A DNA stretch of 64,000 nt, taken from assembly GCF_024362485.1 (NCBI RefSeq), contig NZ_CP101456.1, positions 1,302,001 to 1,366,000 on the forward strand. Reading direction: 5' to 3'. The notes under the pieces are model-generated. The model worked only from the letters and a program-made list of their open reading frames with translations, had not been told where the DNA came from and searched no databases. Origin of the DNA: Natronobeatus ordinarius. Lineage in GTDB: Archaea; Halobacteriota; Halobacteria; Halobacteriales; Natrialbaceae. Shown here piece after piece: positions 15,573 through 29,771 of this stretch (positions are counted from its first letter, which is position 1; each line of letters begins with the position of its first letter). Both the position numbers and the translations under genes were made by a program.

Positions 15573-16529
15573 ATGACTTCCTTCAGAACACTTCTCAGGC
15601 TCTCACCGGCGAATATCTCGGCTGCGTACTTCGTCTTCGGCATCGTGTGGATTCCGAGCACCGACTTGCTGCTGGTTCGCCTGTTCGGCCCAGAACACGC
15701 ACCGACGCTCGTGGGGGTGTTCAAAGGGTGGATCTTCATCGGACTGTCGACGATACTGATCTACAGCGTCTCACGTCTCCACCGCCAGCAGATGGAGTCC
15801 ATCCAGGAGACGCTAGAGACGGCGAATCAGCAACTGCAGGTGTTACACCGCGTCTTCCGCCACAACATTCGAAACGACCTCAACGTGATCCACGGCTACG
15901 CCGAGATCGCCTCGGAACGGACGACAGAGCGGACGGCACAGCTGCACTTAGAAACCGTCAGCCAGACCGCCGAACGAATCATCGACATCAGCGAGAAACT
16001 GAAGGTGATCGAGAAAGTCGACCCGACTCGATCGACCGACGGCACCGTCGACCTCGTTCCCATCGTCGAGGACGAACTGGAACGCATCCGGTCGACGTTT
16101 CCCGAGGTGTCGATTACGGCCGACCTGCCGGAGCAGGCGTGGATCGAGGCGGACGATTCGATCCGGTACGCGATCCAGGAAGTACTCGAGAACGCAGTCG
16201 AGCACAACGACGACGCGCCCGGCCTGTCGGTCTCCGTCGATCGAACGAACGGGAACGTCCGGCTGCAGGTGACAGACGACGGGCCGGGTATTCCACCCGA
16301 CGAACTCCAGTCACTCCAGACGGGCGAGGAGACGGCACTCGTCCACGCGAGCAGCGTCGGCCTCTGGCTCGTCACGTGGATGTGCCGTCTTCACGATGGC
16401 TACGTCCAGTTCGAGACCGAATCCGCCAGCGGAACCACCGTTTCGTTTCACTTCCAAACGGGCTCACAGGCCGCCCTGATGGAGACGCAATCGCACGTGA
16501 CGAAACGGCTCGATTCCATCGCGAACTAG
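15573..16529 (+). CDS. Membrane-anchored sensor histidine kinase
   Basis: 318 residues. Two hydrophobic segments near residues 15-35 and 48-65 anchor the protein, with only a short loop outside, so there is no extracellular sensor domain. A short coiled coil (MESIQETLETANQQLQVL) leads to the H-box FRHNIRNDL with His97, the haloarchaeal type. ATPase boxes are QEVLENAVEHN (N), VTDDGPGIP (G1) and SVGLWLV (G2). No response regulator is adjacent, so it is an orphan. Signal and partner unknown. Confidence 0.87.
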   Translation: MTSFRTLLRLSPANISAAYFVFGIVWIPSTDLLLVRLFGPEHAPTLVGVFKGWIFIGLSTILIYSVSRLHRQQMESIQETLETANQQLQVLHRVFRHNIRNDLNVIHGYAEIASERTTERTAQLHLETVSQTAERIIDISEKLKVIEKVDPTRSTDGTVDLVPIVEDELERIRSTFPEVSITADLPEQAWIEADDSIRYAIQEVLENAVEHNDDAPGLSVSVDRTNGNVRLQVTDDGPGIPPDELQSLQTGEETALVHASSVGLWLVTWMCRLHDGYVQFETESASGTTVSFHFQTGSQAALMETQSHVTKRLDSIAN

Positions 16530-16691
16530 AACTTGGCCACGGGTCGACGACTGCGTGAAACCGACCGATCGCCACCGGGGTTACCCAGCGACTGGGTGTG
16601 GGACGCCGCCCGTCCGACGTCACTCGTGGCCGTCACCGTCCGAAGCGTCCGGTTCCGGTTCGCTTTTCGGGTTCGCCCCGGAAGAGGTGGT

Positions 16692-29203: not shown

Positions 29204-29482
29204 ATGCACAAGGACGAACTTCTCGAGCTTCACGAGCAACTCGTAATCATCATGGAGTACTTCGCCGACCGCGACGAGGTCGAGGATGGGCTCTTCGAAC
29301 CGTACCGCGAACTCGACGTCGACCCCTCCCACGTCCACAAATCGAAGAGCGAGCACAAACACGCCGTTTTCGTCCTGGGCAACGCGCTCGCGAACGCGAT
29401 GAGCGAGGACGAGTTCTCGAGCGCCGGCCGGATCGGCAAACGAATGGAAGAGCTCGCCGACGACGCCGAATCGAAGATCTAG
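29204..29482 (+). CDS. UPF0058 family protein
   Basis: 92 residues, helical, starting MHKDELLELHEQLVIIMEYF and containing HVHKSKSEHKHAVFVLG, hallmarks of the haloarchaeal UPF0058 family (His- and charge-rich; function unknown). A TTAACTCG box about 27 bases before the ATG fits a leaderless start. The gene's TAG overlaps the first CTAG of the tandem structured repeat downstream. Confidence 0.85.
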   Translation: MHKDELLELHEQLVIIMEYFADRDEVEDGLFEPYRELDVDPSHVHKSKSEHKHAVFVLGNALANAMSEDEFSSAGRIGKRMEELADDAESKI

Positions 29483-29650
29483 TACTCCGCCAAGCGTCGA
29501 CTGCAGGGTCGAACTGGCTTTCGGCGACGGATTCGACCCGACAGATCAGGCTTGGCAACGCACTAGTACCGCACCCAGCGTCGACTGATGAGTGAAATCG
29601 GATGACAGCCATCGATTTCACCCAGCAGTTCAGGCTGGGCTCGCCACTAG
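29479..29650. repeat. Two tandem 84-bp palindromic elements with paired-base changes
   Basis: Two copies, 29479-29562 and 29563-29646, each starting CTAGTAC and closed by a third CTAG at 29647-29650, with a period of exactly 84. Both can fold as a nested hairpin. Outer stem: GCCAAGC with GCTTGGC (copy 1), CCCAGC with GCTGGG (copy 2). Inner stem: GGGTCGAA with TTCGACCC (copy 1), GTGAAATCG with CGATTTCAC (copy 2). The stems differ in sequence but keep pairing, while GCGTCGACTG and TCAGGCT between them are conserved. This is the pattern of a structure under selection, or of a structured mobile repeat. Confidence 0.8.
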
Positions 29651-29771
29651 GGCGCCATCGAACGTCGGCCGGTACGTCGAGCCGGGCACCTGCGATCGGT
29701 TCCACTGATACGTTCAGGTTCGACGGACTGCTAGGCGAAACGTATTTGGTCCGTATCCGGCTTGTTGGATT

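Follow-up and report, generated by a model that had tools for sequence, protein, structure and literature searches.

The described systems that come closest to the repeats considered here are the insertion sequences of the IS630 family, together with their MITEs, the small mobile repeats (SMRs) of Haloquadratum, and the palindromes that depend on Y1 (HUH) transposases. For IS630, the preferred target is the TA in CTAG (Tenzen and Ohtsubo, 1991, as cited in PMC2170065), and work on ISY100 showed that this TA is duplicated (PMC2170065). The SMRs of haloarchaea are 80-110 bp long, have inverted ends, and reach up to 54 copies per genome; they are described as leaving no target duplications, having ends unlike those of known transposons, and inserting into other mobile elements (PMC3119063). 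REP/REPIN elements (RAYT) and PATEs (IS605-type) are small, non-autonomous palindromes, often extragenic, that follow Y1 chemistry and carry a GTAG tag or near-terminal palindromes, again with no target duplication. The literature searched, as distinct from ISfinder entries, yielded no treatment of haloarchaeal IS630 MITEs.

Here, we analysed a window of 64,000 nucleotides from the genome of Natronobeatus ordinarius (NZ_CP101456.1, positions 1,302,001 to 1,366,000 of the forward strand), in which an array of 84-bp units begins within the stop codon of a UPF0058 gene. These units are very probably MITEs of an insertion sequence of the IS630 family (Tc1/mariner superfamily). They share with IS630 elements and their MITEs similar ends, CTAG flanks with a TA target, a lack of genes, and many dispersed copies, whereas they differ in being very short, in keeping a fixed 82 bp plus TA despite differing stems, in covariation of an inner stem that lies beyond the shared ends, in showing a minority of CTNAG sites, and in that a match to the transposase was not found in the host. 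The features of the array, in window coordinates, are as follows.

29204..29482, plus strand: UPF0058 gene, 92 aa (PF01893, E=2.2e-34)
29480-29482: TAG stop of the UPF0058 gene, within the first CTAG (29479-29482)
29480..29481, no strand: TA inside CTAG 29479-29482, putative target duplicate by analogy with the IS630 filled/empty pair L189/L187
29482..29563, plus strand: probable MITE copy 1, subfamily A, 82 bp between TAs (PWM score 89.1; fold z=-4.8)
29482..29503, plus strand: left inverted end of copy 1, GTACTCCGCCAAGCGTCGACTG, matching the termini of intact IS630 elements from relatives
29542..29563, minus strand: right inverted end of copy 1, GTGCGTTGCCAAGCCTGATCTG (minus-strand read), taken from the sequence
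29564..29565, no strand: TA common to copies 1 and 2, in CTAG 29563-29566
29566..29647, plus strand: probable MITE copy 2, subfamily B, 82 bp (PWM score 92.2; fold z=-6.2)
29648..29649, no strand: TA common to copies 2 and 3, in CTAG 29647-29650
29650..29731, plus strand: probable decayed MITE copy 3, in the 84-bp register of copies 1 and 2 and bounded on the right by CTAG 29731-29734

Fewer CTAGs than expected occur in the window (18 against about 80), and four of them are spaced by exactly 84 bp, at 29479, 29563, 29647, and 29731. The initial annotation had described two adjacent 84-bp units with the same fold and different stems, bounded everywhere by CTAG, and both the CTAG spacing and the sequence agree with this, as they do with the stems it had listed (the outer GCCAAGC/GCTTGGC of copy 1 becomes CCCAGC/GCTGGG in copy 2, with a corresponding change in the inner stem) and with the kept segments, including TCAGG. 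Overlooked in that count of two was the third unit (29647-29734, CTAGs included), which the fourth CTAG, another 84 bp on, reveals as a decayed copy. In fact, this is the top PWM site in the window after copies 1 and 2 and their reverse reads, and it is identical to the nearest full copy at 50 of 80 bases; its unusual fold is gone (z=-0.2 against shuffles). Copies 1 and 2 lie head to tail, each a long hairpin in which the stems differ and the length and layout are equal, with predicted RNA fold energies of -40.4 and -41.2 kcal/mol, respectively; not one of 200 shuffles folded as well as either. Within copy 1, the left and right ends disagree at conserved positions. After these, the highest-scoring independent site in the window (16526-16613) consists of a CTAG and, behind it, a stretch with weak similarity to the element profile, and it may be a decayed copy.

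Copies elsewhere were studied through searches and fetched genome stretches. A lack of other copies was to have counted against the earlier proposal, and we found 24 dispersed matches in the window's genome, mostly single copies flanked by CTAG or CTNAG, the majority of subfamily A and a few of subfamily B, which has the other inner stem; copy 1 is about 92% identical to dispersed copies of its own genome. Matches occur in 14 of the 60 relatives searched, being weak in a few and including tandem pairs in some, and genome G013 is rich in copies, with 194 half-sites. A search with the left-end pattern gave at least 120 loci, and among the matches listed by name these are from Natrialbaceae, bar about two chance-like bacterial ones; no element was found in the viral contigs searched. 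The family is spread through many genera of Natrialbaceae. Its unit measures exactly 84 bp in 176 of the 182 elements whose right end could be recognised, and at 82 bp, with no transposase gene and multiple dispersed copies, the elements have the attributes by which MITEs are recognised. CTAG stands at both junctions in 92 of 117 distinct cores, and CTNAG at both in eight, with N identical on the two sides in seven of these, which suggests TNA duplication as a minor mode. Such CTNAG targets are without TA and atypical for IS630, and they count against the IS630 reading.

The IS630 partner was first found by following the sequence outward from MITEs in two relatives, where a similar end is followed by a reading frame, and complete elements were recovered by a search for the DDE_3 family. 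Two intact IS630 elements of about 1.21 kb in genome G017 (L222 and L233) lie between CTAGs and have ends of about 22 bp (GTACCGTTCCAGGCGTCGAGTG / GTACTGTCCCAAATGTCGACAG and GTAGCTTCCCAAGCGTCGAGTG / GTACCGTCCCAACCGTGGACAG) that are closely similar to those of the MITEs; the ends of these two, and of L240 and L242, align with the MITE ends, the left one at about 18 of 22 bases as judged by eye. The L222 and L233 products match HTH_32/HTH_23 and DDE_3 (Pfam) and IS630 NF033545 (NCBIfam), and their transposase is divided into two frames of 160 and 235 aa meeting at AAAAAAA, an arrangement that suggests programmed frameshifting in a haloarchaeal IS630. Related IS630 elements in G002 and G026 have the ends GTGCGCTyGCAAGCGTCGACTG, which are there confined to the IS ends, and we sought and did not find MITEs with the GTGCGCTyGCAAGyGT ends of this subgroup. 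Pairs of CTAG or CTNAG in the fetched loci that carry inverted ends at a distance of 0.1-3 kb included no autonomous element. Genome G013 has, besides, a third tandem unit of 106 bp, CTAGTACCATCCCAAGCGTGGACCGACTAGTTGAG...GACTTGGGACGCTACTAG (L030 1669-1778 and L305 686-900), which looks like a deletion derivative of group-1 IS630 ends.

We infer that the MITE is moved by this group of transposases through cut and paste. In this scheme, a DDE transposase of the IS630 family, acting in trans, would bind to the inverted ends of about 22 bp, excise the 82-bp element, and reinsert it at the TA of CTAG, duplicating the TA, with the TNA of CTNAG as a less frequent target. Each copy would thereby restore CTAG at both of its edges, at whose border the next copy could insert, and it is this restoration that would account for the head-to-tail arrangement and its constant 84-bp spacing.

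Comparisons of sister species bear on both the target and the mobility. At L189, as against the empty site L187 in a sister species, a CTAG bordering a MITE has an IS630 in its TA, which is duplicated exactly, and the displayed flanks are identical, though this IS630 is of a second group and not that of the MITE. For the MITE itself there is one clear case, present in G062 (L193) and absent at the collinear site of G061 (L268), with flanks about 95% identical and the empty-site target altered, such that the duplication is unreadable base by base. Other matches to joined flanks, at 72-86% identity, go in the same direction and are too divergent to read. G061 also holds what is left of an IS630 of the matching group, interrupted in its left part by a further insertion; this remnant adjoins two MITEs, where the G062 site has one. 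This presence and absence between sister species supports mobility of the MITE, as far as genome comparison can tell. Moreover, the overlap of the first CTAG with the UPF0058 stop, which had been pointed out at the outset, turns out to be one case of a wider pattern: counting high-GC3 frames of 80 codons or more, we found an in-frame TAG stop at 32 edges of 105 CTAG-flanked elements (about 30%), against 2-5 in each of the control frames. Since the element begins with G, the UPF0058 gene would have kept its TAG stop after the insertion, and landing in CTAG with regeneration of TAG stops suggests spread with little damage.

The group-1 transposase has no match in the window's genome, and none in the copy-rich G013. 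Those IS630 elements of the window's genome that can be delimited (L208, L226, and L299) belong to the second group, with TAGTAA... ends, and neither two further IS630 regions checked there nor those checked in G013 show MITE-like ends. The MITE and a close IS are found together in few genomes only (G015, G016, G017, and G061), which, like the missing transposase, counts against the IS630 reading. Because the matching transposase was not found there, the copies in the window's genome look orphaned, and at present they look incapable of moving, except with the help of another IS630; MITEs often persist after their IS has gone. The second group itself is represented in the window's genome by six closely similar IS630 matches (G000:C1 105200, 1984302, 3287654, 3486201, 3613050, and 3630162), five of them nearly equal in score, and as delimited it is about 1.06 kb long with the ends TAGTAACCGTTAGAA / TAGTAAAAATTAGAA.

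The earlier proposal of selection on structure was right in that the covariation is real. Stem pairs swap letters and stay Watson-Crick, as at 32-57 (CG 71, GC 42), 33-56 (GC 73, AT 41), and 36-53 (TA 49, CG 48), and on a minimum spanning tree, which is not a phylogeny and makes event counts approximate, there are 31 double changes in the stems, 26 of them from pair to pair (slid controls 0-1), along with 122 single changes by which a pair is lost or regained. Together, these changes mean that pairing is maintained, though loosely. Structure is not the sole constraint, however, as the 88-nt unit has near-invariant mismatches at positions 6/83, 18/71, and 20/69. The right-arm motif of the MITE, CTGAACTG, is present at one end of the L243 IS630 as CCTGAACTG, so the mismatches may mark left against right, and their conservation suggests that they reflect the identity of the left and right transposon ends. 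For the stem covariation itself, structure selection and template-switch correction between the arms are both possible causes, and template switching between palindrome arms is possibly the simpler one. That the hairpin as such is selected, with a folded or helically phased element required, we regard as rather unlikely. If it were so, the 84-bp period (about eight helical turns) and the covarying inner stem outside the shared ends would represent the needed fold, which might have a role in the synapsis of close ends by the IS630 transposase, or a host role behind stops. A second family of elements (CTATAG..., 82 bp at CTAG), unrelated in sequence, is laid out in the same way, with an outer stem, an internal loop, and an inner stem, which fits selection on the hairpin.

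A noncoding RNA and a processing or terminator unit had also been proposed, next to a mobile palindrome that targets CTAG, and it is the last of these three candidates that the evidence bears out; the other two are unsupported, side effects of that kind being possible. A structured noncoding RNA, RNA-processing site, or transcription terminator kept for its hairpin, with dispersal secondary, would explain the strong folds of copies 1 and 2, the compensatory changes far in excess of the slid controls, and the location of some copies directly 3' of stop codons. We nonetheless consider it highly improbable, given that the window has no match in Rfam 15 at the gathering score, that the ends and target of the element are those of IS630 transposons, that near-invariant mismatches persist within the hairpin, and that the element is present in one sister species and absent in another. 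Covariation between the arms of a palindrome is not, on its own, evidence of RNA function, and what appeared to be a structured RNA becomes a mobile element whose transposase family can be named.

The SMR-A and SMR-B repeats of Haloquadratum walsbyi resemble the present elements in size (80-110 bp), inverted ends, tens of copies, haloarchaeal hosts, and lack of genes. An SMR-type repeat, with a mechanism unrelated to transposons, is a very remote prospect here, as the present elements have IS630-like ends and apparently duplicated flanks, and are set apart from SMRs, as these are described, by apparent target duplication and the relation to a transposon. As probable MITEs of IS630, they provide a hypothesis that can be tested for short mobile repeats in haloarchaea, the mover of which has been termed enigmatic (PMC3119063).

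A mover of the Y1 (HUH) type (RAYT or IS200/IS605 TnpA), acting on REP/REPIN-like or PATE-like palindromes, is extremely improbable: the elements are indeed palindromic, non-autonomous, often extragenic, and arrayed, and Y1 transposases occur in 29 of 41 genomes searched, yet the flanking N of CTNAG is duplicated in seven of eight cases where Y1 transposition makes no target duplication, copy-rich G013 has broken Y1 genes only, the single Y1 gene of the window's genome sits in an IS605 element without these ends, and a survey of complete genomes found archaeal Y1 transposases of the IS200 subclass only (PMC6006769). A CGTC-tagged REP (PMC3733652) had been considered and was abandoned after the IS630 ends matched.

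The second palindromic family mentioned above has the form CT-ATAGTAGCCACTGAA...TTCAGTGGCTACTAT-AG and was seen at L167, L178, L103, L123, and L176. By pattern it occurs in 9 of 61 genomes, including G002, G008, G018, G020, and G035, and its ends are loosely like those of second-group IS630 elements (TAGTAGnCGTTAGAA). In all pattern matches, 82 bp lie between CT and AG, and the elements often adjoin those of the first family.
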